In this document: piece after piece, positions 5,415 to 30,682 of the stretch
Layout: each line of letters opens with the position of its first letter
Position numbering within the stretch: the first letter of the stretch is position 1
DNA from: Desulfarculaceae bacterium
Lineage (GTDB): Bacteria > Desulfobacterota > Desulfarculia > Desulfarculales > Desulfarculaceae
Direction of reading: 5' to 3'
Assembly (NCBI GenBank): GCA_027067385.1
Contig: JAMOVV010000076.1
Coordinates: 1-44,211, forward strand
DNA length: 44,211 bases
Translations under genes and position numbers: made by a program
The notes under the pieces: model-generated
The model's database searches: none
What the model was told of the DNA's origin: nothing
What the model saw: only the letters and a program-made list of their open reading frames with translations

Positions 5415-5448
5415 CGGTCTTGACGCCTCCCGCTCGCCAACGCCCACC

Positions 5449-6498: not shown

Positions 6499-6563
6499 TT
6501 GATTCCTTGTCCCTGGCTGGGCTCTCGCCGGCCGCTATCCGCCGGGCGGGCGAGGCCGTTTCC

Positions 6564-7313: not shown

Positions 7314-7333
7314 CACGGTCGTCTCCCCATGGC

Positions 7334-8383: not shown

Positions 8384-8387
8384 AGAC

Positions 8388-9620: not shown

Positions 9621-9649
9621 CGCTTTTCTCGCAAGGCTGCGGCGCCCGC

Positions 9650-12985: not shown

Positions 12986-14130
12986 CACAGGCTCACTCCG
13001 CTGGGGATGTTCACCAGGCGCTCCTCCAGCCAGCGGGAGTCGGCCAGGGAATCGGTGACACAGTCGGCGTACATCGGCGCCCGGTGCAGCAGGCCCCACA
13101 GGGGACGGGTGGTCACCCCGCGGGCGTTGCTGTGGGCCAAGAAGGCGTCGCGCTGCTCACGGTCGGCCATCAGCACCGCGCCCAGCCAGTAGTTGGAGCG
13201 GCAGCCGTCCGGCTCCTGGACCCAGCCCAGGCCCCGGGCGTCAAAGAAATCCCGGTAGGCCGCCGCCCGGGCGCGCTTCTTGGCCAGCAGTGGCTCCAGC
13301 ACCTCCATCTGGGCCAGGCCCAGGGCGGCGTTGATGGCCGGCAGGCGGTAGTTGAAGCCCAGGCGGTCGTGGTGGTACTGCCAGCGGTGCTCCCGCTTGG
13401 CGGTGGTGGTGAGGTGCCGGGCCTCGGCGGCCAGTTCGGCGTCGTTGGTGAGGATCATGCCCCCGCCGCCGGTGGTAATGGTCTTATTGCCGTTAAACGA
13501 AAGCACCCCCAGCCGCCCCACGGTGCCGGCGTGGCGCCGGCCGTAGAAGCTGCCCAGGGCCTCGGCCGCGTCTTCCACCAGCGCGATGCCGTGGGGCTCG
13601 CACAGGGTCTGCAGGCCGTGGAGGTCCTGGGGGTGGCCAAAGGTGTGCATGGGCAGGCAGACGGCGACGCGCCGGCCGCTGGCGCGGTGATAAGCGCGGC
13701 CGTCGTCGCCCAAGCGGCAGTGCTCGCCCAAAAACTCCTCCAGGGCCGCGGGGCTCAGCCCCAGGCGCCGGCGGTCGCTGTCCAGGAAGATGGGCCGGGC
13801 CCCGCAGTAGGCGATGGCGTTGGCCGTGGCCACGAAGCTCACCGCCTGGGTTATCACCGCGTCGCCGGGGCGCACCCCGGCCACCAGCAGGGCCACGTGC
13901 AGGGCGGCGGTGCCGTTGACCGTGGCCACGGCGTGGGCCGCGCCGGTGTAGTCGGCCACGGCGCGCTCGAATCTCTCCACCGCCGGCCCCACGCTGGAGA
14001 CAAAGCCATCGTCGATGCAGGCGGTCAAATATTCCTTTTCGCGGCCGGAAAAGGTGGGCGCGTGCAGGGGTATGCTGCCATTTTTTTGGCGGCAAGTGTC
14101 GCGAATAAAGGAAATAATCTCGTCAAACAT
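12985..14130 (-). CDS. legC: LegC-like UDP/GDP-4-keto-sugar aminotransferase (DegT family)
   Basis: 381 residues from MFDEIISFIRD, the characteristic LegC-family opening followed by IPLHAPTFSGREKEYL. PLP Lys is K216 in SFNGNKTITTGGGG, with the ring-nitrogen Asp in LVEDAAEALG (~187). The track ORF start 84 nt earlier is rejected because it would run through the promoter region. The enzyme should aminate the 4-keto intermediate made by the LegB-like dehydratase. It is the first gene after the sigma-54-like promoter at 14261-14276 (leader about 120 nt) and is followed without gap by the acyltransferase. GCAGGT gives a modest ribosome site. Confidence 0.85.
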   Translation of the reverse strand: MFDEIISFIRDTCRQKNGSIPLHAPTFSGREKEYLTACIDDGFVSSVGPAVERFERAVADYTGAAHAVATVNGTAALHVALLVAGVRPGDAVITQAVSFVATANAIAYCGARPIFLDSDRRRLGLSPAALEEFLGEHCRLGDDGRAYHRASGRRVAVCLPMHTFGHPQDLHGLQTLCEPHGIALVEDAAEALGSFYGRRHAGTVGRLGVLSFNGNKTITTGGGGMILTNDAELAAEARHLTTTAKREHRWQYHHDRLGFNYRLPAINAALGLAQMEVLEPLLAKKRARAAAYRDFFDARGLGWVQEPDGCRSNYWLGAVLMADREQRDAFLAHSNARGVTTRPLWGLLHRAPMYADCVTDSLADSRWLEERLVNIPSGVSL

Positions 14131-14260
14131 AGACCTGCGCCCCGTCCTTAGGTGCGGCTCGTCCCATTTCTGCGGTGCTTTGGCCGGCGGGCGGGCCACC
14201 GGGTCCGCCGTCAAAGCTATGACGATCCGAGCCGTGATCGCCGGTTACGGCCCCAAGGAT

Positions 14261-14276
14261 TGCAAATTACATACCA
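14261..14276 (-). promoter_or_regulatory. Sigma-54 (RpoN) type promoter upstream of legC
   Basis: On the minus strand TGGTATGTAATTTGCA has the invariant GG-N10-GC spacing and matches the -24/-12 consensus (TGGCACG-N4-TTGCA) except at two positions of the -24 element. Transcription would start near 14250, about 120 nt before the legC ATG, and run into the whole downstream glycan operon. RpoN often drives middle/late flagellar genes, so this links sugar synthesis to filament assembly. Seen directly; function inferred. Confidence 0.65.
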
Positions 14277-14282
14277 AATAGC

Positions 14283-14305
14283 CGAAAGCCCCGGGACGCC
14301 GGGGC
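14283..14305 (-). terminator. Weak stem-loop between legB and legC
   Basis: GCCCCGG-GACG-CCGGGGC forms a perfect 7-bp stem with a 4-nt loop. On the minus strand it is followed by a short T-rich stretch (TTTCGG), a poor intrinsic terminator. It lies between the legB stop (14340) and the RpoN-type promoter, so it may attenuate legB read-through or act as part of the regulatory region. Confidence 0.35.
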
Positions 14306-14339
14306 CGCGCGCAGGCTGGCGGTGAAACCAGGAGGGTGA

Positions 14340-15353
14340 TCAGATGTTGTAGAGCTGGGGCTTGTAGCGGCCCAGGTTGGCCGGGTCTTGCAACCACTGC
14401 ACGGTGCGCTCAAGCCCCCGGGTAAGGCCCTCGATGCCGCCGTGGCTCGGCTGCCAACCGGTGAGCTCCCGGGCCAGGCGGTTGTCGGCCCACAGGCGCT
14501 CCACCTCGCTGCCGGCCGGCCGCACCCGCTGCTGGTCCTGCTCCAGCTCGACGCTCGTCCCCATCACCGCGGCGATGAGCTCGGCCAGCTCGCCGATGGC
14601 TATCTCGAACCCGGAGCCCAGGTTCACCACCCGGCCCACCGTCTGGTCCGAGGCGGCCACCGCGGCAAAGCCGGCGGCCAGGTCGCCCACGTAGGTGAAG
14701 TCTCGGGTGGGGTGCAGCGAGCCCAGCCTGACGCGGCGGGCCCCGCCGGCTATCTGGGTAATGATGGTGGGGATCACCGCCCGGGCCGACTGCCGGGGGC
14801 CGTAGGCGTTGAAGGGACGGGCCACGCTCACCGGCAGACCGAAGGAACGGTGGAACGACAGGGCCATCTGGTCGGCTCCGATCTTGCTCGCGGCGTAGGG
14901 CGACTGGGCCTGCAACGGGTGGTCCTCGCCGATGGGCACCGTCTGGGCCGTGCCGTAGACCTCGCTGGTGGAGGTGTGCACCACCCGGGCCACTCCCGCC
15001 CGCCGCGCCGCCTGCAACAGGTTGAGGGTGCCGGTGACGTTGGTCTGCACAAAGCTGTCGGGTGCGTGGTAGGAGTAGGGGATGGCGATGAGCGCCGCCA
15101 GGTGAAAGATCACCTGGCAACCCTCCACCACCCGCTCCAGGTGGTGGGGGTCGCGGATGTCCCCGACCATCACCTCAATGCTATCGCGCACCGCCGGCGG
15201 GCTCTGCTCCAGCCAGCCCCAGGAACCGCCGGAGTTGTAGCGCACCAGGGCCCGCACCCGGCAGCCCTGGGCCACCAGGTGCTCCACCAGGTGGGACCCG
15301 ATGAAACCGCCGGCGCCGGTTACCAATACGCTTTGACCGCTTAGTTGGACCAC
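14340..15353 (-). CDS. legB: LegB-like nucleotide-sugar 4,6-dehydratase
   Basis: 337 residues from GTG (VQLSGQSVLVTG); I choose this over the GTG six bases upstream because GAGGGAG is then spaced correctly. Extended SDR with TGAGGFIG (12-19), the YNSGGSWGWL segment typical of LegB, TSTSEVYG, and the catalytic Tyr153/Lys157 (YAASK). It should convert GDP- or UDP-GlcNAc to the 4-keto-6-deoxy sugar, the first committed step for legionaminic acid. It is separated from legC by 209 nt that contain a stem-loop and an RpoN-type promoter, so it may be transcribed from its own upstream promoter as well. Confidence 0.85.
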   Translation of the reverse strand: MVQLSGQSVLVTGAGGFIGSHLVEHLVAQGCRVRALVRYNSGGSWGWLEQSPPAVRDSIEVMVGDIRDPHHLERVVEGCQVIFHLAALIAIPYSYHAPDSFVQTNVTGTLNLLQAARRAGVARVVHTSTSEVYGTAQTVPIGEDHPLQAQSPYAASKIGADQMALSFHRSFGLPVSVARPFNAYGPRQSARAVIPTIITQIAGGARRVRLGSLHPTRDFTYVGDLAAGFAAVAASDQTVGRVVNLGSGFEIAIGELAELIAAVMGTSVELEQDQQRVRPAGSEVERLWADNRLARELTGWQPSHGGIEGLTRGLERTVQWLQDPANLGRYKPQLYNI

Positions 15354-15632
15354 GCTCACTCCCTCGGCGGCCGCCGTCGCGGCCGGTGACAGGCGTTAAT
15401 CATTCCACCGCGACGCCATTATAGGCCCGACCCGCCGGCGCGGGCAAGGCCGGCGGCCCCGCCGGCGCGGCGCGGCTTCGCGGCGCCCCTTGACCATGCC
15501 GTAACCATGGTCCACCTCTTGGTCATAATTTTTGAGCATTGACTTGAGCAGTGCGTCCACGGCATTGCCGGCCATCAGAACCGTGTGCGTCTGCGTCGCC
15601 TTAAGCTCGCTCCCGTGCCGGGGTCTTTTGCC
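15354..15632. other. Intergenic region upstream of legB, with a doubtful 59-codon ORF
   Basis: 279 nt between the TPR-glycosyltransferase stop and legB. On the minus strand 15396-15575 is an open frame of 59 codons (MAGNAVDALLKSMLKNYDQ...), whose first 30 codons look protein-like and the rest Arg/Pro-rich, as in GC-rich noise. There is no ribosome site, so I do not call it a gene. No clear sigma-54, sigma-28 or sigma-70 promoter for legB was found here. Confidence 0.3.
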
Positions 15633-17540
15633 CTAGGCGCTGGCGCGCTGCTCCAACGACTCCGGCGGGCCGGGGTGGGCCAGCCGCCCGGGCGCCGCGG
15701 CCTGGTCCAGGGCGGCCAGTGTTTGGCCAAAGGGCCGGCTGCGGTGAATCACCGCCCGCGGCGCGGTCGCCGGGGTCGCCGCGGCCCGGGGACTCACCGC
15801 CTGGGTCGCGGCCGCCGGGTCGATCACCTGGTAGTAAAACTCCTCCAGGGCCGGCACCTGGCTTTCGTGGGTGAAGACCTGTTGGCCAAAGTCGATCTCG
15901 GCGGCCATTTGCCGCAGGCGATCCAGGTTGGCCAGGATATCCTCGGCGCTCTCAAAGGTCATGCCCACCGGGTTGGCGGCAAAGTACTCCACGTAGGATT
16001 TGAGCGGCGAGGCCAACACCGGCAGGCCGGCGGCCAGGTATTCGAAGAGCTTGTTGGCGATGGTGGTGTCCAGGAAGCGCCGGTTGCCCAGCTCCAGGTT
16101 GAAGGGAATAATGCCAAAGTCGAAACGGGTCATCTCTTCCATGATCCGGCTCGGCGAGAGCGGCTGGTTGTAGAAGATGTTTTCCGTTGACTCAAACACA
16201 GCGGCCACCTGCTGGTTGTAGGAGGCGGGATAGATATGCACCCGCACCCCGGCGGCGGCCAACTCATTGAATAGCCGGGTGAAATCACGGTGCCCCCCCA
16301 GGCCGACACCCCCTTCGTAAACGATGTGCACCGCCCCGTCGGACCCCGAGTCCTTGGGCAGGCGGCGCTGGGGCAGGTCACCGGCCGACACGTAGTTGTA
16401 GTGTACGTGGCAGGGGCCCCGCACCCCGTAGAGCTCCCGGGCCTCGGCCAACTGGTAGGGCGTGGTGTACACCCGGCCGGCCGCGCCGCGGTTGGCCACC
16501 CCCTCGAAAAAGGCCAGGCTGGCCTCACCGTCGGCCCGCAGGGAGATGAGGTCGTGGGTGTCGTGCACCACCGGGGCCTGGCCGGCCAGGGCGGCCACGG
16601 TGAGCACGTCCGGCTCGTTGTGGCAGTGGACCAGGTCGTAGTCCGCGCTGAGGTCCCAGAGGTGGCGGTGGTCCCGGAGCTGGACGCACTGGTGGTACAC
16701 CTCGTCGCTGAGCCCCGGGTACATCTGGCTAAGCCTGGCCTGGGTATAGGCCAGGCTCACCCGGTGGCCGCGCCGGCCCAGGGCGGCGGCCAGCTTGTAG
16801 TTGCGGATGCAGGGGGCCTCCTGCACAAAGAGGATGTTCAGGGGACGCGCGGTGGGCTCCAGGGGAGCCGGCCGCGGCACCGGCTGGGCATCGGCCGGGG
16901 CGGGCGGGTCGGCCGCTTGCGCCGGTTGCGGCGGGGCCAACACCTCCGGCGGCGGAGTGAGCACGTCCTCCGGGGTGAGGTCCCGCGGGAGGATGGGGTT
17001 GTCGGTGGCCAGTTGGCGGCACTGGCTCAGGGCCTCCTGGTACTTCCAGCGCTCCTCGGCCGGCGCGGCGTCCAGGGCCCGCTCCAGGTAGGCGGCCGCC
17101 AGGTGCCAGCCGGCGTCCATCATGTAGAGCTTGCCGAGATTGGCTAGATACAGCGGATTGTCCGGGGCCAGGTCCACCGCCCGCTTCATCACCCGCAGGG
17201 CCTCCTGGCGGCGTCCGGCCATGGTCAGGGCGGTGCCCAGGCCGTTGAGCGCCGAGATATCCTCGGGATGTTCTTGGACCAGCCGGCCATAGGCCTCGGC
17301 GGCCGGGTTGTAGTCGCGCCGGATCATGTGCAGCCGGCCCAAGGCCCGCCAGGCCTCGGCGTCGTCCGGGTTTTTTGCCAGCACACGCTTAAGGAGATCG
17401 ATGGCCTCGGCCCCGCGGCCCTTGGCGGCAAGTTCTTCCACCTGGGTAATTATGTTGGTCTCCGGCCGGGGGAGCGCCGTGGTCTTGGCGCGCGTCCGGG
17501 AGCGGCCGTTTTTCTTTTTGCGCTTCTTTTTTTTGGCCAT
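15633..17540 (-). CDS. TPR-repeat glycosyltransferase (GT-B type), flagellin-linked
   Basis: 635 residues from MAKKKKRKKKNGR; AAGGAG lies 4 nt before the ATG and the longer track start is rejected. Order: a Lys/Arg-rich tail (2-20) encoded partly by an A8 run, about four TPR-like repeats (35-170), a Pro/Ala-rich linker (~195-245), then a GT4-like domain from LNILFVQEAPCIRNYKLA with DLVHCHNEPDVLTV, an EGGVGLGGHRDF strand and the donor-side region IANKLFEYLAAGLPVLAS. A Pro/Ala tail closes it. TPR-glycosyltransferase fusions commonly modify proteins, and the gene directly follows the flagellin terminator, so it may be the enzyme that glycosylates flagellin. A role in glycan chain assembly is the alternative. 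Confidence 0.75.
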   Translation of the reverse strand: MAKKKKRKKKNGRSRTRAKTTALPRPETNIITQVEELAAKGRGAEAIDLLKRVLAKNPDDAEAWRALGRLHMIRRDYNPAAEAYGRLVQEHPEDISALNGLGTALTMAGRRQEALRVMKRAVDLAPDNPLYLANLGKLYMMDAGWHLAAAYLERALDAAPAEERWKYQEALSQCRQLATDNPILPRDLTPEDVLTPPPEVLAPPQPAQAADPPAPADAQPVPRPAPLEPTARPLNILFVQEAPCIRNYKLAAALGRRGHRVSLAYTQARLSQMYPGLSDEVYHQCVQLRDHRHLWDLSADYDLVHCHNEPDVLTVAALAGQAPVVHDTHDLISLRADGEASLAFFEGVANRGAAGRVYTTPYQLAEARELYGVRGPCHVHYNYVSAGDLPQRRLPKDSGSDGAVHIVYEGGVGLGGHRDFTRLFNELAAAGVRVHIYPASYNQQVAAVFESTENIFYNQPLSPSRIMEEMTRFDFGIIPFNLELGNRRFLDTTIANKLFEYLAAGLPVLASPLKSYVEYFAANPVGMTFESAEDILANLDRLRQMAAEIDFGQQVFTHESQVPALEEFYYQVIDPAAATQAVSPRAAATPATAPRAVIHRSRPFGQTLAALDQAAAPGRLAHPGPPESLEQRASA

Positions 17541-17679
17541 GGGGCTCCTTTCACCTGCAATTCCAACCACCTGAACCAGCCCCCCCACGAGGGACCCGCC
17601 AGGACCGGACGGCGGCGCGCTCGGGCTACCGAGTCGCCGGCCAGTTATGGAGCAAGATACATGCCAGGGCCGCGGGGCC

Positions 17680-17711
17680 AAAAGGAAGCCCCGGCCCATG
17701 CGGGCCGGGGC
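17680..17711 (-). terminator. Intrinsic terminator of flagellin gene 1
   Basis: Perfect 10-bp stem GCCCCGGCCC / GGGCCGGGGC with a 4-nt loop, followed on the minus strand by TTCCTTTT. It is about 55 nt after the flagellin stop and separates it from the TPR-glycosyltransferase gene. Confidence 0.8.
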
Positions 17712-17766: not shown

Positions 17767-19437
17767 TTAACCGCCAAGCAGGCTCAGGGCCAGGCTGGGC
17801 AGGCTGTTGGCCTGGGCCAGCATGGACACGGCCGCCTGGGCCAAGATGTTGTTGCGGGTGAACTCGGTCATCTCCAGAGCCACGTCCACGTCGCTGATAC
17901 GACTCTCGGAGGCCTGCAGGTTCTCGGCCTGGATGCTGAGGTTGGTAATGGTGTTTTCCAGGCGGTTCTGCAAGGCGCCGAGAGCGGCACGGGCCTTGTC
18001 CTTGGTGGTGATGGCGCTGTCGATGGCTCCCAAGGCCAACTGGGCGGCCGACTGGGTGTTGATGCGCTGACCGTCCCAAGTGGCGGTCACCGTGGTCCAG
18101 TCGTCGGACGCGTCGGAACCGGAGAACTGCGAGATCACCGCGGAGCCGGCGGAGTTGGTGACCGCGCCGCTGCCCCAAGGCGCGCTGGGCGAACCGGCGT
18201 TGCCGTCCAGGACGGTGCCGCCGCTGGTGGTGGCGGTGAAGACCCGCAGGCGATAGCCGGTCTCGCCGTCGATGCGCAGTTCCCACTCACCGGAGCCGGT
18301 GCTCGTCTCGACCGCCGAGGCGTCGAGCACGCCCACCGCGCCGTTGGCAAAGGCGGTCTCGGTGAACAGGCTGGCGCTGCTGTGAGCCAGGGTGGCGCTG
18401 TTGCCGGCCACGCCGCCGGTGTAAGACGAGAGCTCCAGGGTGTCGGTGCCGCTGACCGCGCCGTAGAAGCCGGTGGAGGCGGCGTTGTTGTTGAGGAAGG
18501 CCGCCACCGAGTTGAGGATGGTGGTCATGGCCTGGCCACTGCCGCCGATACCGATGATCGAGGTGGTGGCGCCCACCGAGAAGCTGTTGGCCGTGGCGGT
18601 GGTGAACTGGAAGACCTCGCTGCCGATGGTGAAGGTAGCGCCGGTGGCGTTGGCCGAGGTGAAGGCCACGTCGAACTGCAGGGTGCCGTTGGCGTGACGG
18701 CCGGCGTCGATCTCGCTCACCAGGCTGTCGATGCTGTCACCGCTGTTGACGTCCACGAAGCCGTAGAAGGACCAGGTGCTGCCCTGGTCGGAGCTGACCT
18801 CGATGCCGAAGTAGCCGGTGGCGCCCAGGTCGACCGAGGAGGAGGTGGCGTCCAAGTTCACGGATTGCCAGTAGTTTTCACCCTCGCCCACCCGCAGGCC
18901 ATCAGAGGTGCTGGCACGCAGGTCGCCGATGGTCATGAAGTAGTAGTCCTCGGCTGCGTCGTTGCCGGTGCCGAAGTGAATCTTCAGACCGCTGCCGTCG
19001 TGGGCGTTGAGCAGGCTGCCGTCGAGCAGCTTGACGCCGTTAAAGTCGGTGGCGTTGGCGATACGGTCGATCTCCGCCGCCATGGCCTGGTACTCCGAGT
19101 TCATGATCTCGCGCTGGGCCGTGGTGTAGGTGCCGGTGGCCGCCTGTTCGGCCAGCTCCTTCATACGGATCAGCTTCTCGTCGATGACGCTCATGGCGCC
19201 CTCAGCCGTCTGGATCATGCTCACCGCGTCGGCCGCGTTGCGTACGCCCTGGTTAAGCACCGCAATGTCGGCTCGCATCTGCTCGCGAATGGCCAGACCG
19301 GCGGCGTCGTCGGCGGCCGAGTTGACGCGCAGGCCCGATGACAAACGCTGCACCGACTTGGACAACCGCCCATAAATCTGGGTCAGGTTCCTGGCCGCGT
19401 TCATGGCCATCATGTTGTGGTTGACAATAAGGCTCAT
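17767..19437 (-). CDS. fliC: Flagellin (copy 1)
   Basis: 556 residues; ATG follows AAGGAGGGG. The D0/D1 N-terminus (MSLIVNHNMMAMNAARNL; LSSGLRVNSAADDAAGLAI) and C-terminus (SRISDVDVALEMTEFTRNNI ... LSLLGG) are canonical for the flagellar filament subunit, which is exported by the flagellar type III system. The middle (about 175-460) is the variable, surface-exposed D2/D3 region, rich in Ser/Thr and thus in possible O-glycosylation sites. It is a close paralogue of the neighbouring flagellin; N- and C-terminal ends are nearly identical. No Cys is seen. A FliA-like promoter lies about 140 nt upstream and a strong terminator follows. Confidence 0.97.
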   Translation of the reverse strand: MSLIVNHNMMAMNAARNLTQIYGRLSKSVQRLSSGLRVNSAADDAAGLAIREQMRADIAVLNQGVRNAADAVSMIQTAEGAMSVIDEKLIRMKELAEQAATGTYTTAQREIMNSEYQAMAAEIDRIANATDFNGVKLLDGSLLNAHDGSGLKIHFGTGNDAAEDYYFMTIGDLRASTSDGLRVGEGENYWQSVNLDATSSSVDLGATGYFGIEVSSDQGSTWSFYGFVDVNSGDSIDSLVSEIDAGRHANGTLQFDVAFTSANATGATFTIGSEVFQFTTATANSFSVGATTSIIGIGGSGQAMTTILNSVAAFLNNNAASTGFYGAVSGTDTLELSSYTGGVAGNSATLAHSSASLFTETAFANGAVGVLDASAVETSTGSGEWELRIDGETGYRLRVFTATTSGGTVLDGNAGSPSAPWGSGAVTNSAGSAVISQFSGSDASDDWTTVTATWDGQRINTQSAAQLALGAIDSAITTKDKARAALGALQNRLENTITNLSIQAENLQASESRISDVDVALEMTEFTRNNILAQAAVSMLAQANSLPSLALSLLGG

Positions 19438-19578: not shown

Positions 19579-19605
19579 TGATCGGCGCGCCCCGGCGCTT
19601 TCTTA
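19579..19605 (-). promoter_or_regulatory. fliCp1: FliA (sigma-28) type promoter of flagellin copy 1
   Basis: Minus strand TAAG-N15-GCCGATCA, against the consensus TAAA-N15-GCCGATAA; two mismatches with exact spacing. Predicted start near 19570, about 130 nt before the ATG. Confidence 0.65.
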
Positions 19606-19617
19606 AATGCCGCCGGC

Positions 19618-19738: not shown

Positions 19739-21403
19739 CTAGCCGCCCAGGAGTGAGAGGGCCAGGGAAGGTAGGCTGTTGGCCTGGGCCAGCATGGCCA
19801 CGGCGGCCTGGGCCATTATGTTGTTGCGGGTGAACTCGGTCATCTCCAGGGCCACGTCTACGTCGCTGATGCGACTTTCGGCCGCCTGGAGGTTTTCCGC
19901 TTGGATTCGCTGGTTGGTTATGGTGTTTTCCAGCCGGTTGGCGAAGGCGCCCAGGTTGGCGCGGGCGATATCCTTGCGCACGATGGCGTCATCCACCGCG
20001 GCCAAGGCCAACTGGGCGGCCGACTGGGTATTGATGTTCTGGCCGTCCCAATCGGCGTTGACCTGGGTCCAGTCGTTGACGGCGTCGGAACCGCTGAAGG
20101 CGGCCAGCACCGCGCTGCCGGAGGAGTTGGTAACCGGCAGGCCCCAGGGCGAGGTGGGAGCGCCGCCGGTGGCGTCCAGGATGGCCCCGCCGGCGCTGCT
20201 TTGGCTAAATACCCGCACCATGTTGTCGCCGTAGGCGCTGATGCGCAGTTCCCACTCACCGTTGAGGTTGGTCTCGGCCTCGGCGCTCACCACCCCGGCG
20301 CCGCCGTTGGCAAAGGCGGTCTCGGTGAACAGGCTGGCGCTGCTGTGGGCCAGGGTGGAGGTGTTGGCCGCGCTGCCGCCCTCGTAGGCCATGAGGTTGA
20401 GGGTGTCGCCGCCGCTGACCGCGGCGTAGAAGCCGGTGGAGACGGCGTTGTTGTTAAAGAAGGCCGCCACCGAGTTGAGGATGGTGGTCATGGACTGGCC
20501 GGCGCCGCCGATGCCGATGAGCGACGTGGTGGCGCCCACCGTGAAGGTATTGGTGGAGCTGGCGCTGGTGAACTGGAAAACCTCGCTGCCGATGGTAAAG
20601 GTCGCGCCGTTGGCGTTGGCCGAAGTAAAGGCCACGTCGAACTGCAGGGCGCCGGTGGCGTGACGTCCCGCGTCGATCTCGCTGGCTATCTGGTCGATAC
20701 TGTCGCCGCTGTTGACGTCGACGTAACCATAGATATCCCAGGTCTGGCCGCCGTCGGTGGAAAACTCGATGCCGAAGTAGCCGGTGGCCCCCAGGTCGGC
20801 CTCGCCGCTGGTGGCGTCGAGGTTCTGGCTCTGCCAGTAGTTCTCGCCGGCCCCGATGCGCAGCCCGGTGGCGGTGGAGGCCCGCATGTCGCTCATCTGC
20901 ACGAAGTAGTAGTCCTCGGCCCGGTCGTTACCGGTGCCGAAGTGAATCTTCATGCCGTTGCCGCCATGCATGTAGTTGAAACTGCCGTCGAGCAGCTTCA
21001 CCCCGTTGAAGTCGGTGGCGTTGGCGATACGGTCGATCTCCGCCGCCATGGCCTGGTACTCCGAGTTCATGATCTCGCGCTGGGCCGTGGTGTAGGTGCC
21101 GGTGGCCGCCTGTTCGGCCAGCTCCTTCATGCGGGTGAGCTTCTCGTCGATGACGCTCATGGCGCCCTCGGCGGTTTGAATCATGCTGATGCCGTCGGCC
21201 GCGTTGCGCACGCCTTGGTTGAGCACCGCGATATCAGCCCGCATGAGCTCCCGGATGGCCAGACCGGCGGCGTCGTCGGCGGCCGAGTTGACCCTCAGCC
21301 CCGAAGACAACCTCTGAACCGACTTGGACAACCGCCCATAAATCTGGGTCAGGTTCCTGGCCGCGTTCATGGCCATCATGTTGTGGTTGACAACTAGACT
21401 CAT
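19739..21403 (-). CDS. fliC: Flagellin (copy 2)
   Basis: 554 residues from MSLVVNHNMMAMN; AAGGAGGG precedes the ATG. The track's 683-aa form reads through the promoter and leader and is rejected. Canonical D0/D1 ends as in copy 1 (QRLSSGLRVNSAADDAAGLA; EMTEFTRNNIMAQAAVAM). The paralogues share long stretches in the middle too (GATFTIGSEVFQFT, SSASLFTETAFANG), with scattered substitutions and small indels in the presumed exposed region, consistent with duplication followed by drift. It has the perfect FliA promoter and double terminator, so it is probably the major or equally expressed filament subunit. Confidence 0.97.
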   Translation of the reverse strand: MSLVVNHNMMAMNAARNLTQIYGRLSKSVQRLSSGLRVNSAADDAAGLAIRELMRADIAVLNQGVRNAADGISMIQTAEGAMSVIDEKLTRMKELAEQAATGTYTTAQREIMNSEYQAMAAEIDRIANATDFNGVKLLDGSFNYMHGGNGMKIHFGTGNDRAEDYYFVQMSDMRASTATGLRIGAGENYWQSQNLDATSGEADLGATGYFGIEFSTDGGQTWDIYGYVDVNSGDSIDQIASEIDAGRHATGALQFDVAFTSANANGATFTIGSEVFQFTSASSTNTFTVGATTSLIGIGGAGQSMTTILNSVAAFFNNNAVSTGFYAAVSGGDTLNLMAYEGGSAANTSTLAHSSASLFTETAFANGGAGVVSAEAETNLNGEWELRISAYGDNMVRVFSQSSAGGAILDATGGAPTSPWGLPVTNSSGSAVLAAFSGSDAVNDWTQVNADWDGQNINTQSAAQLALAAVDDAIVRKDIARANLGAFANRLENTITNQRIQAENLQAAESRISDVDVALEMTEFTRNNIMAQAAVAMLAQANSLPSLALSLLGG

Positions 21404-21539: not shown

Positions 21540-21566
21540 TTATCGGCACCCCGAAATTTGAGTTTA
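21540..21566 (-). promoter_or_regulatory. FliA (sigma-28) promoter of flagellin copy 2
   Basis: Minus strand TAAA-N15-GCCGATAA, a perfect match to the sigma-28 consensus with exact 15-nt spacing. Start predicted near 21531, about 128 nt before the ATG. Confidence 0.9.
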
Positions 21567-21611
21567 GGCTTTTTTGATATTTTTTTGGCCCGTCGCCCAA
21601 CGATCCTGTAT

Positions 21612-21793: not shown

Positions 21794-23428
21794 ATGAACG
21801 TGCTATTGGTCAACCCGCCCTTTCCCGAATCGTTCTGGAGCTTGTCCCAGGCGGCCCGGGCCCAGATGCGCCGCTGTTGCTTCCCGCCGTTGGGGCTCGT
21901 CACCATGGCCGCCCTGCTGCCCGGGCATTGGCGGCTTCGGCTGGTGGACCAGAACGCCCGGACCATCAAGGAAGCCGACTGGCGGTGGTCCGATCTGGTG
22001 CTCAGCGGGGGCATGGCGGCCCAGCGCGACGGCCTGGTGGACCTGGCCGCCCAGGCCCGCCGGCGCCAAGTGCCCATGGCCGCCGGCGGGCCTTCGGCCC
22101 ACTACTTTACCGGCCAGTTGCTGGACGCCGGCTGCACCTACGTGGTGCGCGGCGAAGGCGAGGCCGTGGTGCCGCGGCTGCTCCAGGCCCTGGACCAGGG
22201 CCACGGCGGCGGCCTCATCGAGTCTGCCCAGCGCCCCGACCTGGCCGAATCGCCCCTGCCCCGCTTCGACCTGCTGCGCCTGGGCGACTACACCACCATG
22301 AGCGTGCAGACCTCGCGCGGCTGCCCCCACCGCTGCGACTTCTGCGATGTGACCAACCTCTTCGGACGCCGCCAGCGCATCAAGCCGGCCCCACAGGTCA
22401 TAGGCGAGCTCGAGGCCCTGTTCAACCTGGGATGGCGGGGACCGGTCTTTATCTGCGACGACAACTTCACGGCCAACCGCTCCCGCACCCTGGAGCTGCT
22501 CCAGCTGCTCAATCAATGGATGATCGAGCGCGGCAAGCCCTTTTCCTACGGCACCCAGGCCTCGGTGGAGCTGGGCTCGGACCAGGAGCTCATCGACGAG
22601 ATGACCCAGGCCCAGTTCGTCAACGTGGTGGTGGGGGTGGAGACCCCGGACCCCGAGGTGCTGGCCGCCTGCAACAAGCGCCAAAACCTGCGGCACCCGG
22701 TGCTGGAGGCCCTGGTGAACCTGCGCGACAACGGCCTGAGCGTCATCGGCACCTTTATCATCGGCTTTGACGGTGAAAAGCCCGGGGCCGGCGGGCGGAT
22801 CGTGGATTTCGTGAACCGTACCTCGGTGCCCCTGGTGCAACTGGGGGTGCTCAACGCGCCCCTCGGCACCCCCCTGTACCAGCGCCTGGAAGACCAGGGC
22901 CGCATCATCCCCGAGACCAGGAGCAGCGACGCCTTTTACGGCGAGACCAACTTCATCCCCCAGCGACCCTACCAGGAGATCGCCGATGAATTCGTGGAGG
23001 CCTGGCGGCGGCTCTACGACCGCAAGGCCTTTATCGAGCGCTGCGAGGCCTTCTACCTGGCCATGCGCCCCACCCGCCAGGCCCTGGCCCTGAGCCAAGG
23101 CCGGCAGCCGCCGCCCGAGGTTATCCCGGCCAAGATGCCCCTATCGACCAAGGCGCGCAACCTGGTGAGCATCCTGCACTTCTTGTGGTGGTATACCGTA
23201 CGGACCAGGCCGGCGGCCCGCCGACGCCTGGTGAAGGCCATCTGGCGGATCAAGAAGCGCAACCCATCGCGCCTGACCAGCTTTGTCAACGCCTTGTTCA
23301 TGGCCGAAAGCATGTTCATGCACCGCCGGCGGCTGCTGCGGGCCGCCGCCCGCGGCGAGCTGAAAGGCCCCCGGCCCGACCAGGCGCCACAGCGCCACTC
23401 CCCCGGCCCGGCCACCCCCACCGGTTGA
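21794..23428 (+). CDS. B12-binding-domain radical SAM protein (DUF4070-like)
   Basis: 544 residues. The first ~150 residues (MNVLLVNPPFPESF ... VVRGEGEAVVP) form a cobalamin-binding-like Rossmann domain; the radical SAM Cys motif is TSRGCPHRCDFC (CxxxCxxC, about 175-186), followed by GVETPDPEVL and IIGFDGEK. The C-terminal ~200 residues resemble the DUF4070 extension of uncharacterised B12-radical SAM proteins. The canonical DxHxxG B12 base ligand is not obvious, so cobalamin may be bound base-off without His or not at all. Such enzymes methylate or rearrange unactivated carbons. It lies between the flagellin genes and a glycosyltransferase fusion, but no direct link to the filament is proven. 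Substrate unknown. Confidence 0.8.
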   Translation: MNVLLVNPPFPESFWSLSQAARAQMRRCCFPPLGLVTMAALLPGHWRLRLVDQNARTIKEADWRWSDLVLSGGMAAQRDGLVDLAAQARRRQVPMAAGGPSAHYFTGQLLDAGCTYVVRGEGEAVVPRLLQALDQGHGGGLIESAQRPDLAESPLPRFDLLRLGDYTTMSVQTSRGCPHRCDFCDVTNLFGRRQRIKPAPQVIGELEALFNLGWRGPVFICDDNFTANRSRTLELLQLLNQWMIERGKPFSYGTQASVELGSDQELIDEMTQAQFVNVVVGVETPDPEVLAACNKRQNLRHPVLEALVNLRDNGLSVIGTFIIGFDGEKPGAGGRIVDFVNRTSVPLVQLGVLNAPLGTPLYQRLEDQGRIIPETRSSDAFYGETNFIPQRPYQEIADEFVEAWRRLYDRKAFIERCEAFYLAMRPTRQALALSQGRQPPPEVIPAKMPLSTKARNLVSILHFLWWYTVRTRPAARRRLVKAIWRIKKRNPSRLTSFVNALFMAESMFMHRRRLLRAAARGELKGPRPDQAPQRHSPGPATPTG

Positions 23429-23500: not shown

Positions 23501-26005
23501 ATGACCCCCAAGACGTCCCCCGCCGCCGACCAACCACGCCTCTACCAACGAGCGCCGGACGAGCCCACCCTCAGCCTGTGCATGATGGTCAAAAACGAGG
23601 AAAAGCTCCTGCCCACCGCCCTGGCCAGCGCCGCCGGCTGGGTGGACGAGATAATCGTGGTGGATACCGGCAGCACCGACCGCACGGTCCAGATCGCCGA
23701 GTCCTTTGGGGCCAAGGTCTACCATCACCCGTGGGAAAACGACTTTGCCAAGCACCGCAACCAGACCCTCTCCTACGCCACCGGCGACTGGATACTCATC
23801 CTCGACGCCGACGAGGAACTGGACCAAAAAACCGCCCCCATCATCCGCCAGGCCATAAAAGACCCCCGGTTCGACGCCTACCTGGTGGAACTGATCAACC
23901 AAGTGGCCAGCGGGGCCACCACCTTTCTCCTGCACGCCCGCATCTTCCGCAACCACAAGGGTTTCCACTACGAAGGCAAGGTGCACAACCGCCCCGTCGT
24001 CAACGGCCCCTCCACCCAGATACCGGTGAAGCTCTACCACTACGGCTACGCCCTGGATGAAGCGACCATGGAGGCCAAGCACCAGCGCCGCCTGGAGATG
24101 ATCCGCCAGTGGGTCCAGAGCGAGCCGGACAACTACCTGTCGCACTCCTACCTGGCCCAGACCCTGGCCGCCAGCAAGGAGACCGAGGTGGAGGCGGTGG
24201 ACGAGGGGCTCATAGCGGTGGACTTGATTCGCCGGGGTGGCGTGGGCGCCGAACAATTGCCCCGGGCCTACTACCCGGTGCTCATGTGCCTGGCCAACCT
24301 GGGCCGCGACGACGAGGTGATCAAGCATGCCCGGGACTGCCTGGAGGCGGTGCCCTACTACCCCGATCCCCACTTCTTCCTCACCTGGGCCTACTACCGC
24401 CAAAACCGTTGGCAAGACGTCTTACAAGAGGTGCGGCGGTTTATCGAGGCCCAGGAGTACGCGGCCCAGCACCCGGAAAAATTCATCTACATCGAAAACA
24501 TGACCCTGGAGCAGACCAAGTGGGTCTACATGCGCTGGGTCATGAGCGCCGTGCACCTGCAAAAGAACGACGAGGCGTCCGAGGCCTTTGAGCGGCTGCT
24601 GGCCGAGGACGACTGCGAGGTGGTGGTGAAGATGGTGCTGCAAGACCTGCTGTCCCAGGGCTTCTTGGCCCAGGCCCGGACCATGGCCGAGCTGGCCCGG
24701 CGGGACCGGCCGCAGTGGGACTGGCACGAGCGCTACTCCGCCGCCCTGGCGGCGGCCGAGAGCCAAAGCACCTCCGGCGACCTGCGCCGCCAGGCCGGCG
24801 AGGCCCTGCAGGCCGGCGACCTGGCCACCGCGGCCGACAAGTTCCGGCAAGGAGTCCAGGCCGCGCCCACCGACGTGGAGACCCTCTTGGGCCTGGCCCG
24901 CTCCCTGGACGGCCAGGGCCGCACCGACGAGGCGGTGGATTGCTACATGCAGGCCCTGTGCGGCGGCTCAGGACACGACTGGGCCTGGCGGCGGCTGGTG
25001 GAGATATACCAGCAGGCCGGCAACCTGGCCGGGGCCGAGGCCCTGCAGGCCCGGGTGGCGGCCATGGTCAATAACGACCCCCAGGCCGCCGCCACCCTGG
25101 CCGAGATGCGCCGGCGCCTGGCCCAGGACCCGCCCGGTCCCTGCGTGGCCCAGCGCCCGCCCCGGCTGGTGGTCTTTTTGGTGCCGGGGCTCTCGCCGGA
25201 CATGGTCCGGGTGGCCGCGCCCCACCTGCTGATGCACACCGCCTGGGGCGAGCTGATCCAGCCGCCGGAGGTGGGGGCCGCCTCGGCCCCGGCCTGGGCC
25301 ACCATCTATACCGGCCAGACCCCGCCGGCCCATGGCATCACCCAGGACCCGCCCCCCGGCCAACCCCTGGGACTTAACCAGCTCAAGACGCCCTCGGTGT
25401 GGGAGATAATGGCCCAGGACCTGCGGGTGGGGCTCATGTCCATACCCCTGGGCTGCCCGCCGCCGAGCCTCAACGGCTGGGCCGTGGCCGGCTATCCCGG
25501 CGGCCTGCTGCGCCCCGGGCTGGTCCACCCGGCCGAGCTGGCCCCCCGGGTCCTGGCCGGCGGCTTTCGCCCCGACTACCTGGCCGGGCCGCAAGAGGAG
25601 TTTTCCTACTGCCGTGGCATGGAGCGCGACTACTCCCAGGAGGCCGGGCTCTACCAGATCGAGCGCAACCGCATAACCACCGCCATGGCCCTGCCGGCGG
25701 TGGACGTGCTGGCCATCGGCCTGTGGACGGTGGAGCGGGTGCAAAACTGCTTTGGCCTGGACCCCTCCAACTTCCGCACCGGGGCCTACCAGCAGGTCTA
25801 CTCCTGCCTGGAGGCCCTGGTGGCCGCCCTGCGGCCGGCCAACTACGCCGTGCTGAGCCAGCGCGGCTGCGGCTCCGGACCGGCCGAGCATCGCCCCGGC
25901 GGCTTCTACTGCCTCAGTTGGCTGCGGGGCGAGGGCGGTAAGGCCCGCGCCACCGACATCGCCGAGCAACTGCTCCAGTGCCTCGGCTCCCAAACCGCGC
26001 CTTAA
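23501..26005 (+). CDS. Three-part fusion: GT2 glycosyltransferase, TPR, degenerate phosphodiesterase-like domain
   Basis: 834 residues; GGAG lies 5 nt before the ATG. Residues ~24-270 are a GT-A glycosyltransferase: LCMMVKNEE, VVDTGSTDRT and the DxD motif LDADEE (Asp102/Asp104), as in TPR-linked protein glycosyltransferases of the SunS type. Residues ~270-545 are helical with TPR-like repeats. Residues ~550-834 match the layout of the type I phosphodiesterase/alkaline-phosphatase superfamily: VVFLVPGLSPD, SAPAWATIYTG (nucleophile region), LWTVERVQN and VLSQRGCGSG. Yet the expected metal ligands are changed: the DG aspartate is Pro, TDRxQH reads TVERVQN, SDHG reads SQRG. So this domain is probably catalytically dead and may bind a glycan or partner. 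Placed upstream of fliD and fliS, it is a candidate flagellin glycosyltransferase. Confidence 0.8.
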   Translation: MTPKTSPAADQPRLYQRAPDEPTLSLCMMVKNEEKLLPTALASAAGWVDEIIVVDTGSTDRTVQIAESFGAKVYHHPWENDFAKHRNQTLSYATGDWILILDADEELDQKTAPIIRQAIKDPRFDAYLVELINQVASGATTFLLHARIFRNHKGFHYEGKVHNRPVVNGPSTQIPVKLYHYGYALDEATMEAKHQRRLEMIRQWVQSEPDNYLSHSYLAQTLAASKETEVEAVDEGLIAVDLIRRGGVGAEQLPRAYYPVLMCLANLGRDDEVIKHARDCLEAVPYYPDPHFFLTWAYYRQNRWQDVLQEVRRFIEAQEYAAQHPEKFIYIENMTLEQTKWVYMRWVMSAVHLQKNDEASEAFERLLAEDDCEVVVKMVLQDLLSQGFLAQARTMAELARRDRPQWDWHERYSAALAAAESQSTSGDLRRQAGEALQAGDLATAADKFRQGVQAAPTDVETLLGLARSLDGQGRTDEAVDCYMQALCGGSGHDWAWRRLVEIYQQAGNLAGAEALQARVAAMVNNDPQAAATLAEMRRRLAQDPPGPCVAQRPPRLVVFLVPGLSPDMVRVAAPHLLMHTAWGELIQPPEVGAASAPAWATIYTGQTPPAHGITQDPPPGQPLGLNQLKTPSVWEIMAQDLRVGLMSIPLGCPPPSLNGWAVAGYPGGLLRPGLVHPAELAPRVLAGGFRPDYLAGPQEEFSYCRGMERDYSQEAGLYQIERNRITTAMALPAVDVLAIGLWTVERVQNCFGLDPSNFRTGAYQQVYSCLEALVAALRPANYAVLSQRGCGSGPAEHRPGGFYCLSWLRGEGGKARATDIAEQLLQCLGSQTAP

Positions 26006-26393: not shown

Positions 26394-28898
26394 GTGGCGG
26401 CTTCCATATCCGGGTACGACGCTTTTAACTTCTCGACCATCAGTGGAGATATCAGCTTCACCGGTCTGGGCAGCGGGACCGATTTCACCAAGATCATCGA
26501 CGCCCTGATGAAAGTGGAGTCGATCCAGAAGACCCGCATGGAGCTGTGGCGCAAGGACTGGGAGGCCAAAATCGCCTCCATTACCTCGCTGAAACAGCGG
26601 CTCACGGCCATCGAGGAAGCCGCCAGGAGCATGGACACCACCGGTGAGTTCCTGGTCCGCCAGGCCACCAGCAGCGACAGCGACGTGGTCACGGCCACCG
26701 CCTCCAGCGAAGCCTCCAACGGCGCCTACAACGTTACGGTGGCCACCAACAGCCAGCATATCCTCGGCACCTCCGGGGTGGCCGCCTCCTCTACCGCCAT
26801 CACCCGGCACACTTCCGGCAGCCAAAACCTTATCATCAGCGTGGGCGGCACCCAGCACACCATCGCCATCGCCGCCGGCCGTACCATCACCCAGGTAGCC
26901 CAGGATATCACTAATTACTTCTCATCCACCACGGCCCCGGTCCACAGCGACGAGGTGGTCGCCTCGGTGGAGAACGACGGCACCTCCAACAACCCCTATC
27001 GCCTGGTGCTGCAAAGCAATATCGGCGGGGCCTCCGGCGAGATCGAGGTGCTGCAAAACCCCCTGACCCTGTCGTTTAGCTCCACCGACGCGGCGCTCTA
27101 CCAGGACTGGACCAGCGGCTCGGGCCCGGACATCACCGTGGGCGGCCAGTTCAACGGCTCCAGCGATGACCTGCCCGCCGGCCAAAGCTACTTCTCCTAC
27201 CGCATCTACAACACCGAGGCCACCGCCCGCACCGTGGGCACCGATACCATCACCCTGGGCTACCAGGTCAACACCGCCTCCGGCGTGGTGAGCGGCACGG
27301 TCACCGTCCCCTCCTCCTACAAGGACGGCGACTCCATCGAGATTCACAACGGTATCCTCTTGCAACTGGAAGAAGGCAAGACGGTGGGGGCCAGCGACGA
27401 CTTTTACCTCACCGCCTATTGCAACGACTTCGACACGCCCGAGACCGGCTCCAACTGGACCGGCACCGCCTCCGTGAGCGCGGCCGGCAACTACATGGGT
27501 ACGGTGAACAAGACCTACTCCTTCACCGTGGTGAGCGACGACGGCACCCTGGCCGCCTCCGACCCCTCCGACGCACTCACCCTGCGCTGGACCGACTCCA
27601 CCGGCGATACCGGTACGGTGGAAGTGGCCTACTCCGGCACCAACTACGAGATCGAGCAGGGAGTCTACCTCAACCTGGGGGCCGGAACCTTTGTCAACGG
27701 CGACACCTTCACCCTCGACGTATCCGCCCCCGAGCGCCAGGCGGCCCAGGCCGAGGGCCTGGCCCAGGTCTGCAAGGTGGTGCACGACGGCTTCCCCGAT
27801 AGCCTCAGCACCCCGGTGACCAGCACCGCCGGCGGCGATAAGACCTTCACCTATGTCTACGCCGGCGAGGAGATCAACGTCACCGTGGCCGGCGGCACTA
27901 CCCTGAGCCAACTGGTCAGCCTAATCAACAACGACTCCAACAACCCCGGGGTGCACGCCTCGGTAACCAACGACGGCCTGGGCCTGCCCAATAGCTACAA
28001 GCTGGTGCTCACCGGCGAGCACAGCGGGGCCGAATACCAGATAACCCGCGTCAGCCACGACTTTGCCGGCGGCACCTTCGAGTCGGCCGCCGGTGACGTG
28101 GGCGGAGGATTCTCCCTCAACCAAAAGGCCACCAACTCCCTGATCCGGGTCGACGGCTTCCCCTCCAGCCCCATGTTCCTGCAGAGGGAAGACAACACCG
28201 TCAGCGACGTCATCACCGGCGTGACCCTGGACCTGCACGACGCCGGCAACGCCAAGATCACCGTGTCCACCGATGTCAACGCGGTGGGGGCCAAGATCGA
28301 AAAGTTCATCAACGCGGTCAACTACGCCCAGGACTTCATCCGCCAGGAAACCAAGTTCGACCAGAATCATCCCGAGAACAACGGCGTGCTCATCGGTAAC
28401 TACGGTTACCAGATCATCAAGTCGCGCATCGACACCATCTTGAACTCCAGCATCACCGGACTCACCGACGGGGTGGACCCCTACACCCACCTGTCCCAGA
28501 TCGGCATCAAAACCGACCCGGACAACAACGGCCGCTGGACCATCGACAATACCGCCCTGCGCAACGCCCTCAACGCCAACGCCGACGCGGTGGCCAACCT
28601 GTTCATCGACAACAGCGACAAAAACACCGAGGGCGTGGCCAAGCGCATGTATGACGAGATGTATGTCCAGACCAATACCGGCGGCATGCTCCCCACCCTC
28701 AAGGATAACTACGAAGAGATCATCAGCAACATCGACAAACGCATCGAAAGGGAGGACCGACGGCTCAAGCTGGTACGTGACCGCTACAAGGAACGCTTCG
28801 CCCGCCTGGAAGCAACCTTGGCCAAGCTCAACACCCAGTCCGAATCACTCAAGAGCCAAATAGCCAAACTGCCGAAGATTGGCAAGGCCTCAGGCTAG
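26394..28898 (+). CDS. fliD: Flagellar filament cap protein FliD (hook-associated protein 2), enlarged
   Basis: 834 residues from a GTG with AAGG 8 nt upstream. The N-terminal FliD domain is clear (ISFTGLGSGTDFTKIIDALM; TRMELWRKDWEAKI) and the C-terminal domain ends in the coiled coil typical of FliD (DRYKERFARLEATLAKLNTQ; SLKSQIAKL). FliD caps the growing filament and inserts flagellin. Most FliD proteins are about 450-700 residues; here about 300 extra Ser/Thr/Gly-rich residues lie in the middle, with two similar segments (GDSIEIHNGILLQLEEGKTV / YEIEQGVYLNLGAGTFVNGD) that look like a repeated beta module. The gene has an RpoN-type promoter and is followed by fliS after 52 nt. Confidence 0.95.
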   Translation: MAASISGYDAFNFSTISGDISFTGLGSGTDFTKIIDALMKVESIQKTRMELWRKDWEAKIASITSLKQRLTAIEEAARSMDTTGEFLVRQATSSDSDVVTATASSEASNGAYNVTVATNSQHILGTSGVAASSTAITRHTSGSQNLIISVGGTQHTIAIAAGRTITQVAQDITNYFSSTTAPVHSDEVVASVENDGTSNNPYRLVLQSNIGGASGEIEVLQNPLTLSFSSTDAALYQDWTSGSGPDITVGGQFNGSSDDLPAGQSYFSYRIYNTEATARTVGTDTITLGYQVNTASGVVSGTVTVPSSYKDGDSIEIHNGILLQLEEGKTVGASDDFYLTAYCNDFDTPETGSNWTGTASVSAAGNYMGTVNKTYSFTVVSDDGTLAASDPSDALTLRWTDSTGDTGTVEVAYSGTNYEIEQGVYLNLGAGTFVNGDTFTLDVSAPERQAAQAEGLAQVCKVVHDGFPDSLSTPVTSTAGGDKTFTYVYAGEEINVTVAGGTTLSQLVSLINNDSNNPGVHASVTNDGLGLPNSYKLVLTGEHSGAEYQITRVSHDFAGGTFESAAGDVGGGFSLNQKATNSLIRVDGFPSSPMFLQREDNTVSDVITGVTLDLHDAGNAKITVSTDVNAVGAKIEKFINAVNYAQDFIRQETKFDQNHPENNGVLIGNYGYQIIKSRIDTILNSSITGLTDGVDPYTHLSQIGIKTDPDNNGRWTIDNTALRNALNANADAVANLFIDNSDKNTEGVAKRMYDEMYVQTNTGGMLPTLKDNYEEIISNIDKRIEREDRRLKLVRDRYKERFARLEATLAKLNTQSESLKSQIAKLPKIGKASG

Positions 28899-28950: not shown

Positions 28951-29391
28951 ATGATGAGCTATGGACAGCAACAATACCGCAAGACCCAGGTGGCCACCGT
29001 CGACCGGGGCAGACTGATCGTGCTGCTCTACGAGGGGGCCATCAGCTTCCTCACCAAGGCCCGCGCCGCCCAAAGCGACGGCGACGTGCCCAAGGCCTGT
29101 AACTTGATCAACCGGGCCCAGGACATCATCGACGAACTCAACGCCTCACTCAACCTGGAGGAAGGCGGCGACATCGCGACCAACCTGCGCCGCCTCTATC
29201 TCTTCATGGGAGACCAGTTGGTCCAGGCCAAGGTTGAGGGCCGCGGCGAGCCGGTGGACGGGGTTATCAAGATGCTCACCACCTTAAATGACGCCTGGCG
29301 CGAGGCGGTGGCCAAGCCCGAGGCCCAGGAGGTCTTGTCCCGGCGGGGCGCCGCCAACTCCACCCAGACCCGCGATACGGTGAGCGTCTAG
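28951..29391 (+). CDS. fliS: Flagellar export chaperone FliS
   Basis: 146 residues; AAGGAAGAGG is 7 nt before the ATG. The family pattern is clear: an N-terminal YGQQQYRKTQVATVDRGRL segment, LIVLLYEGAISFL, and a helical bundle with INRAQDIIDELNASLN and LYLFMGDQLVQA. FliS binds the disordered C-terminus of flagellin in the cytosol and prevents early assembly. The C-terminal ~25 residues (QEVLSRRGAANSTQ) are a divergent tail. It is downstream of fliD in the usual order and probably shares its RpoN-type promoter. Confidence 0.95.
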   Translation: MMSYGQQQYRKTQVATVDRGRLIVLLYEGAISFLTKARAAQSDGDVPKACNLINRAQDIIDELNASLNLEEGGDIATNLRRLYLFMGDQLVQAKVEGRGEPVDGVIKMLTTLNDAWREAVAKPEAQEVLSRRGAANSTQTRDTVSV

Positions 29392-29491: not shown

Positions 29492-30682
29492 GTGATCATC
29501 GAGGAAATACCGCACCACCTGCGCAACACGGTGACCCACGTGGATTGCCCCATCTACCTGGGGCTCGACGGCGACGTCTGCCGGCCACCGGCACCCCTGG
29601 CCCTGGGCGATACCCTCATGCTCCTGGGCCTGCTGCGTAACCACGGGCGGCCGGTGCGCCTCCACCTGGACCCCGGCCCCCTGGCCGGCCTGGTGCAGGG
29701 CCATCCCATGGTGGCCGAGCTGGCCCCACCGGACACCGCGGCCCCGGCGGCGGTGCGCCAGGTGGCGGTGCGGCGCTTCGGCCGCGACGTGTCCTGGTAC
29801 TCGGAGGTGGTGCAGCGGGTTAAGTTCGGCGTGGCCCCGGTGGACCATATCCGGCTCAACCCCATCGTGGGCCACTCCCTGCACCACAAGCTGGGCTCGC
29901 TAAACGACCGCCCTGGCATCTTCCTGGACCCGGCCCGGCCGGCCGGGCTGCAACACCTGCTGTCGCGGCAAAAGCCCACCGTGGTGGTCTACCCCATCAA
30001 CCCCAGCCGCAGCGATCCCTTTTGGGCGGACCATAAGTGGTGGGCGGCGCTGCTCGCCAACCTGCGGCCCAGCTTCGCCCTGGTGGCCCTGGGCGCGCCC
30101 GACTACGGCGAGATCACCGACCTGGTCGACTGCGCCGTGCCCTCCGACGCCCCGGACTCGCGCCTGGAAGACCTGGCCGCCCTGATCAAGTCGGCCGCCG
30201 GCTTCGTGGGGGTCGACGGCGGACTGAGCCACCTGGCCGCCGCGGTGAATACCAACCTGGTCACCGTGTGGGACGCCATGACCAGCTTCCGCCACTGGGC
30301 CGGCGGCATCGGACACCACATCGTCATGTCCAACCCCCACGGCTTCCGCTATCCCCAAAGCCGCCGCCTGGACCTAGACGACCTTAAAAAGCACTTCCGC
30401 CGCGTGAAGATTCCCGACGGCCGCGGCGGACACCGCCTGGTGGAGCTGCCGCAGGAGGGCTTCAAAGACGCCTGCCGGGAGATTTTCGGCTCGGTGGCCC
30501 AGTACGCCATGAGCGTGCAGGCCCTGCGCGAGGTGCGCGAGGAGCGCGGTTGCGTGGCCGCCTGGATGAACAACCCGGCCCAAAAAGAGCTCTTCTACTC
30601 CCAGAGCCTCGGCCTGGCCTACAAGGCCCTGGCTGGCCAGGCCCCCCGCGGAGCCAACTGGGTAGCCCCCGTAACCCCCTAA
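29492..30682 (+). CDS. GT9-like (heptosyltransferase-fold) glycosyltransferase
   Basis: 396 residues from GTG with GGAG 7 nt upstream. LALGDTLMLLGLLRNHG at the N-terminus, and GFVGVDGGLSHLAAAVNTN (about 240) followed by VTVWDAMTSFRHW, are the GT-B/GT9 signature (GxDxGxxHLAAA). GT9 enzymes usually add heptose to lipopolysaccharide, but family members near fliD/fliS in other bacteria have been linked to flagellar glycosylation. The C-terminal ~90 residues are not recognised. It is 100 nt downstream of fliS and immediately followed by repeat copy C. Donor and acceptor are unknown. Confidence 0.7.
   Translation: MIIEEIPHHLRNTVTHVDCPIYLGLDGDVCRPPAPLALGDTLMLLGLLRNHGRPVRLHLDPGPLAGLVQGHPMVAELAPPDTAAPAAVRQVAVRRFGRDVSWYSEVVQRVKFGVAPVDHIRLNPIVGHSLHHKLGSLNDRPGIFLDPARPAGLQHLLSRQKPTVVVYPINPSRSDPFWADHKWWAALLANLRPSFALVALGAPDYGEITDLVDCAVPSDAPDSRLEDLAALIKSAAGFVGVDGGLSHLAAAVNTNLVTVWDAMTSFRHWAGGIGHHIVMSNPHGFRYPQSRRLDLDDLKKHFRRVKIPDGRGGHRLVELPQEGFKDACREIFGSVAQYAMSVQALREVREERGCVAAWMNNPAQKELFYSQSLGLAYKALAGQAPRGANWVAPVTP

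Follow-up and report, generated by a model that had tools for sequence, protein, structure and literature searches.

A probable flagellin glycosyltransferase of the Desulfarculaceae carries a conserved pseudo-phosphodiesterase domain

How cytoplasmic glycosyltransferases select flagellin, and how modification is coupled to export, is poorly understood. The window analysed here, a 44,211-nucleotide stretch of a Desulfarculaceae contig (JAMOVV010000076.1), contains near two flagellin genes an open frame for an 834-aa protein that joins a GT2 domain, a TPR superhelix and a C-terminal domain resembling a phosphodiesterase deprived of its active site (Table 1). The initial annotation placed this enzyme just upstream of fliD, and fliD indeed starts at 26394. 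What, then, could a dead hydrolase fold contribute to a glycosyltransferase at a flagellar locus?

Table 1. Features of the flagellin locus and of the GT2-TPR-pseudo-phosphodiesterase gene (positions in the window).
Feature	Position	Strand	Basis or remark
Legionaminic-type nonulosonate cluster	4164-15359	-	
LegB	14340-15359		above TIGR04180 cut-off
TPR + GT4-like protein	15633-17699	-	beside flagellin 1
Flagellin 1	17767..19437	-	Flagellin_N + Flagellin_C
Sigma-28-like site	19579-19606	-	upstream of a flagellin
Flagellin 2, divergent neighbour	19739..21388	-	Flagellin_N + Flagellin_C
Sigma-28-like site	21540-21567	-	upstream of a flagellin
Radical SAM/B12/DUF4070 gene	21794-23428	+	between flagellin 2 and GT2 gene
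GT2-TPR-pseudo-phosphodiesterase gene	23501..26005	+	ATG-to-stop open frame, 834 aa
GT2 domain, residues about 25-250	23573..24250	+	PF00535 2.6e-24; DADEE motif
TPR/helical superhelix, residues about 251-542	24251..25126	+	TPR families; helices in full-length model
Pseudo-phosphodiesterase domain, residues 549-834	25145..26002	+	PF01663, AlphaFold2 model, fold search, hhalign
Pro562 for first metal-ligand Asp (LVPGL)	25184..25186	+	alignment
Ser595 at nucleophile position	25283..25285	+	alignment
Glu745 + Asn749 (ERVQN) for DRxxH	25733..25747	+	alignment
Gln787-Arg788 (SQRG) for Asp-His of SDHG	25859..25864	+	alignment
fliD, next downstream gene	26394..28898	+	FliD_N 2.2e-19, FliD_C 6.7e-38
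fliS	28951..29391	+	FliS 3.1e-37
GT9-like gene, after fliS	29492..30682	+	PF01075

Pfam searches delimited the three parts of the protein. Glycos_transf_2 matched residues 25-141 (2.6e-24), TPRs were found at residues about 435-540 (2.7e-13), and Phosphodiest (PF01663) covered residues 557-784 with 23.6 bits in the full protein and 27.1 bits for the isolated domain, the curated cut-off being 23 bits and some relatives scoring below it. Six more genera-level groups of the Desulfarculaceae have full-length relatives, each of which shows the DADEE motif of the GT2 domain in the alignment. A model of the full-length protein (pLDDT 83.9, pTM 0.72) shows the GT2 domain, a long helical superhelix and the C-terminal domain.

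The C-terminal domain was modelled separately with AlphaFold2 from an alignment of the window domain and 12 relatives (mean pLDDT 81.5, pTM 0.87). When this model was used in a fold search, the best 50 PDB matches listed all belonged to the alkaline phosphatase superfamily, including NPP1, NPP3, ENPP6, Xac NPP, sulfatases, TAB5 alkaline phosphatase and phosphonoacetate hydrolase, with E-values of about 3e-6 to 6e-5 and query-normalised TM-scores of about 0.4-0.55. With hhalign, the domain matched phosphodiesterase relatives, most of which have intact ligands, at 99.2% probability; this profile-profile match and the fold search together rule out chance or misreading. The alkaline phosphatase-type fold predicted by the initial annotation is thus borne out, and the motif order of the type I phosphodiesterase/alkaline phosphatase superfamily is kept. 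Scoring above the cut-off and having this fold, the protein can be assigned to PF01663 as a fold family. It differs from the type I phosphodiesterases/NPPs of that family, with which it has fold and motif order in common, by the absence of metal ligands and nucleophile, by a shorter C-terminal part and by its fusion to GT2-TPR.

We compared the catalytic positions in 13 family members, window included, mapping them on two relatives with intact ligands, the compact L077 and L009, which is encoded in the same genome as the window. An active type I phosphodiesterase/NPP has Asp, Asp + His, Asp + His and His as ligands and a Thr or Ser nucleophile; judged from the alignment, none of the family is expected to be such an enzyme, the metal ligands being replaced in all 13 members. 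The degenerate motifs first read in the window (LVPGLSP, TVERVQN, SQRG) were correct and map onto the metal ligands of the intact relatives, and the losses are repeated in the 12 further members. At the first ligand position the other members mostly have Gly, Asp occurs in L050 only, and the family as a whole spans Pro, Gly, Ala, Ser, Asp and Glu. The His of DRxxH, Asn749 in the window, is Gln, Arg, Lys or Ser in other members; the Asp position of this motif is acidic in 12/13, the sole one of the seven ligand and nucleophile positions so kept. At the DHG positions Gln787 is conserved in 13/13 and Arg788 in 12/13, and the last ligand His is unconserved. The PAW-T-TG nucleophile region had also been described as retained, which holds for its scaffold but not for the nucleophile itself: this position is Asp in nine members, Asn in two and Ser in two (window included), compared with Thr in L077 and Ser in L009 and L039, meaning that most members have lost the nucleophile too. 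The alignment showed no alternative metal site that is intact. Since the ligand loss is common to the family it is therefore old, and the near invariance of the residues replacing the DHG pair speaks for a retained role of the cleft.

An intact-ligand phosphodiesterase fused to GT2-TPR was found neither in 64 class genomes nor in 396 phylum genomes, nor in an 85,462-species pattern scan, which sees close relatives only. Other long open frames with a PDE domain were rejected as candidates (L127, fused to APS kinase; L125, a sulfatase; L126, without a GT domain). The closest intact relative found, L077 (1492-2574), is a 360-aa phosphodiesterase with all ligands and a GFYC motif; its gene lies next to a flippase-like gene within a polysaccharide locus. 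L009 is a standalone 452-aa phosphodiesterase adjoining ileS. In a genus without flagella, the 452-aa phosphodiesterase (L025, L026, L029-L033) has lost several ligands, with the degenerate motifs LTGPDHINRL and, in L025/L026, SGYGI, which makes it another degenerate member of this superfamily.

In the transferase part, the GT2 domain matched GmaR of Listeria monocytogenes best among solved structures (2.3e-34), followed by ThuS and SunS; for the full-length model SunS/ThuS gave the best fold matches, and the TPR of OGT was also present. GmaR transfers GlcNAc to flagellin and binds the repressor MogR via its C-terminal domain, and flagellin recognition has been proposed for its TPR domain (PMC9638930). 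In Caulobacter, flagellins are bound by the TPR region of FlmG (PMC7591256). Like GmaR, which is organized as GT2-TPR-linker-antirepressor, the 834-aa protein has a GmaR-related GT2 with an intact DxD motif, a TPR region after it and an extra C-terminal domain, and the pseudo-phosphodiesterase module sits where GmaR carries its antirepressor. It departs from the GmaR type in that this antirepressor is all-helical whereas the domain here has an alkaline phosphatase fold. The substrate of GmaR is flagellin; the flagellin link here is genomic. The initial remark that the architecture was unfamiliar from described flagellar systems stands only in part: GmaR already combines GT2-TPR with a further domain at the C-terminus, and the novelty lies in which type of domain occupies that place. 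The peptide S-glycosyltransferases SunS and ThuS resemble the protein in their GT2 and following helices; unlike them, it has no RiPP context and carries the extra domain, and it reached 94.4 bits with the SunS equivalog TIGR04195, whose cut-off is 350. FlmG is also a modular cytoplasmic flagellin glycosyltransferase with TPRs, and nonulosonate genes lie near the gene studied here; however, its TPR is N-terminal and its GT of another type, so that the TPR-GT4 gene of the window is closer to the FlmG plan. In the open literature we found no flagellin glycosyltransferase with a pseudo-phosphodiesterase, and nothing on Desulfarculus flagellin.

The genomic link to flagellin extends to most carrier genomes. 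In nine of the 12 carrier genomes (window, G001, G002, G013, G014, G015, G016, G017 and G018) a flagellin gene neighbours the GT2 gene on the opposite strand; the contigs of G003 and G019 are too short to judge, and in G020 the gene lies outside any flagellar locus. fliD and fliS follow the GT2 gene in most carriers, often with a GT9-like gene intervening (between the GT2 gene and fliD in L042, L043, L047, L048 and L050, beside the GT2 gene in L046). Flagellins 1 and 2 are the likely substrates of the enzyme.

The survey of homologues agreed with the suggested link to flagellin genes. The domain was detected in 12 of the 21 Desulfarculaceae genomes (E < 1e-60), exactly those with flagellin and an above-cut-off FliD, and the remaining nine, all of one genus, have neither the domain nor FliD nor flagellin; as these nine represent one genus, the pattern amounts to little more than one evolutionary event. 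The domain was absent at E <= 1e-8 from the class genomes outside the family, 42/43 of which have flagellin, so that it is dispensable for flagella in general. The 85,462-species scan, which detects close relatives only, returned 12 loci, assigned to Desulfarculus, Desulfarculaceae, Desulfarculales, Desulfocarbo, Dethiosulfatarculus or unclassified Deltaproteobacteria. GT2-TPR relatives adjoin flagellin genes in other families of the phylum too, and the PDE domain was present in none of the nine tested. The GT2-TPR core thus represents a widespread type of enzyme that probably glycosylates flagellin, to which a single family has added the pseudo-phosphodiesterase. G014 encodes a second GT2-TPR-pseudo-phosphodiesterase (L053), away from flagellar genes and without the Arg of SQRG, and G015 contains a broken remnant of a similar copy (L036, 1576-1981).

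The pseudo-phosphodiesterase is under purifying selection. Its dN/dS (Nei-Gojobori) was 0.23 in each of two close pairs (L042/L043 and L045/L052), distant pairs near saturation being left out; about 40 columns are invariant, and the frame is open in every genus-level group with the domain. In mean pairwise identity the pseudo-phosphodiesterase (50%) lies between the TPR part (38%) and the GT2 part (61%). That the domain is a functionless remnant on its way out would fit the missing catalytic residues and the broken second copy of G015, but we rejected this reading on the dN/dS values and the conservation and hold it to be extremely improbable. That selection keeps the fold despite the loss of catalytic residues suggests an additional function without catalysis, for example docking or regulation. 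It is very unlikely that the domain is a cryptic enzyme that works without metals or binds them at another site: the acid at the DRxxH Asp position and the family-specific invariant residues could be read in this way, but six of the seven catalytic positions are replaced, and the conserved Cys of GFYC and His of HG, being present in the intact L077, are not new catalytic residues.

The protein is thus probably a flagellin glycosyltransferase whose pseudo-phosphodiesterase module is non-catalytic. Homology and context give good support to its predicted role in flagellin glycosylation, and the proposed connection to flagellin of a GT2-TPR enzyme bearing a dead hydrolase fold was upheld by the GmaR kinship, the synteny in most carriers and the exact co-occurrence within the family. 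The GT2 domain would transfer a nucleotide-sugar-derived sugar directly onto flagellin in the cytoplasm, before export, while the TPR superhelix would hold flagellin as proposed from GmaR, SunS/ThuS and FlmG; the acceptor and sugar of the enzyme and the binding partner of the module are what we infer here. The C-terminal domain would be an old pseudo-phosphodiesterase that lost its bimetal site and nucleophile and was maintained as an accessory module. Among the possible roles of this module we rank docking first, with somewhat less than even confidence, and GmaR-like regulation and ligand sensing next. The initial suggestion of a glycan- or protein-binding module that would steer glycosylation is plausible, with these last two as serious competitors. 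By docking a partner, either protein or glycan, the module may add specificity or timing to flagellin glycosylation, contacts being made through the former active-site cleft with its almost invariant Gln-Arg pair and, in most members, an Asp at the old nucleophile position. We consider it rather unlikely that the module has a regulator, chaperone or assembly factor of the flagellum as its partner and would couple flagellin synthesis or export to glycosylation, much as the GmaR C-terminus binds MogR: domain order and position are those of GmaR (PMC9638930), GmaR is the nearest solved GT2 and the gene lies between flagellin and fliD/fliS in relatives, but the folds of the two C-terminal domains are unrelated. 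Metal-free binding of a nucleotide, nucleotide-sugar or phosphate/sulfate compound, by which the cleft would tune the transferase, also seems unlikely to us; NPP relatives among the fold matches bind nucleotides and UDP-GlcNAc, and the Gln-Arg pair is kept in the cleft, but NPPs bind nucleotides through the metals and nucleophile that are gone here, and the first ligand position varies freely. An Arg and an acid may bridge the place where the metals stood, the sole observation in support being that L053 lacks both. That a docking or sensing module of this kind, with an Arg-acid bridge replacing the bimetal site, controls the flagellin glycosyltransferase is possible, if doubtful; if true, it would be a flagellar control module not described so far, confined to one mostly sulfate-reducing family.

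A common GT2-TPR enzyme that gained a conserved dead-enzyme domain in one lineage amounts to a natural experiment, and deleting the pseudo-phosphodiesterase would reveal its contribution. The family also illustrates cleanly how a member of the alkaline phosphatase superfamily can turn from enzyme into non-catalytic module; in the open literature, as far as our partial coverage goes, we found none comparable.

Several other features of the window were recorded. Nine sigma-28-like sites were found against 3.95 expected by chance, with sites upstream of both flagellins (2 and 3 mismatches) and none at the GT2-TPR-pseudo-phosphodiesterase gene; sigma-54-like sites stayed at chance level (9 against 8.5 expected). 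The product of the radical SAM/B12/DUF4070 gene, a gene not found in the loci of relatives, could modify flagellin or its glycan. The TPR-GT4 protein, with the domain order of FlmG, is a second candidate flagellin glycosyltransferase and could be the main one. Besides LegB, the nonulosonate cluster encodes two DegT aminotransferases, NeuD (above cut-off), NeuB, an SDR, a cytidylyltransferase domain in a longer protein, a CBS-NTP transferase and a sulfotransferase-family protein, which suggests a modified, perhaps sulfated, flagellar glycan.
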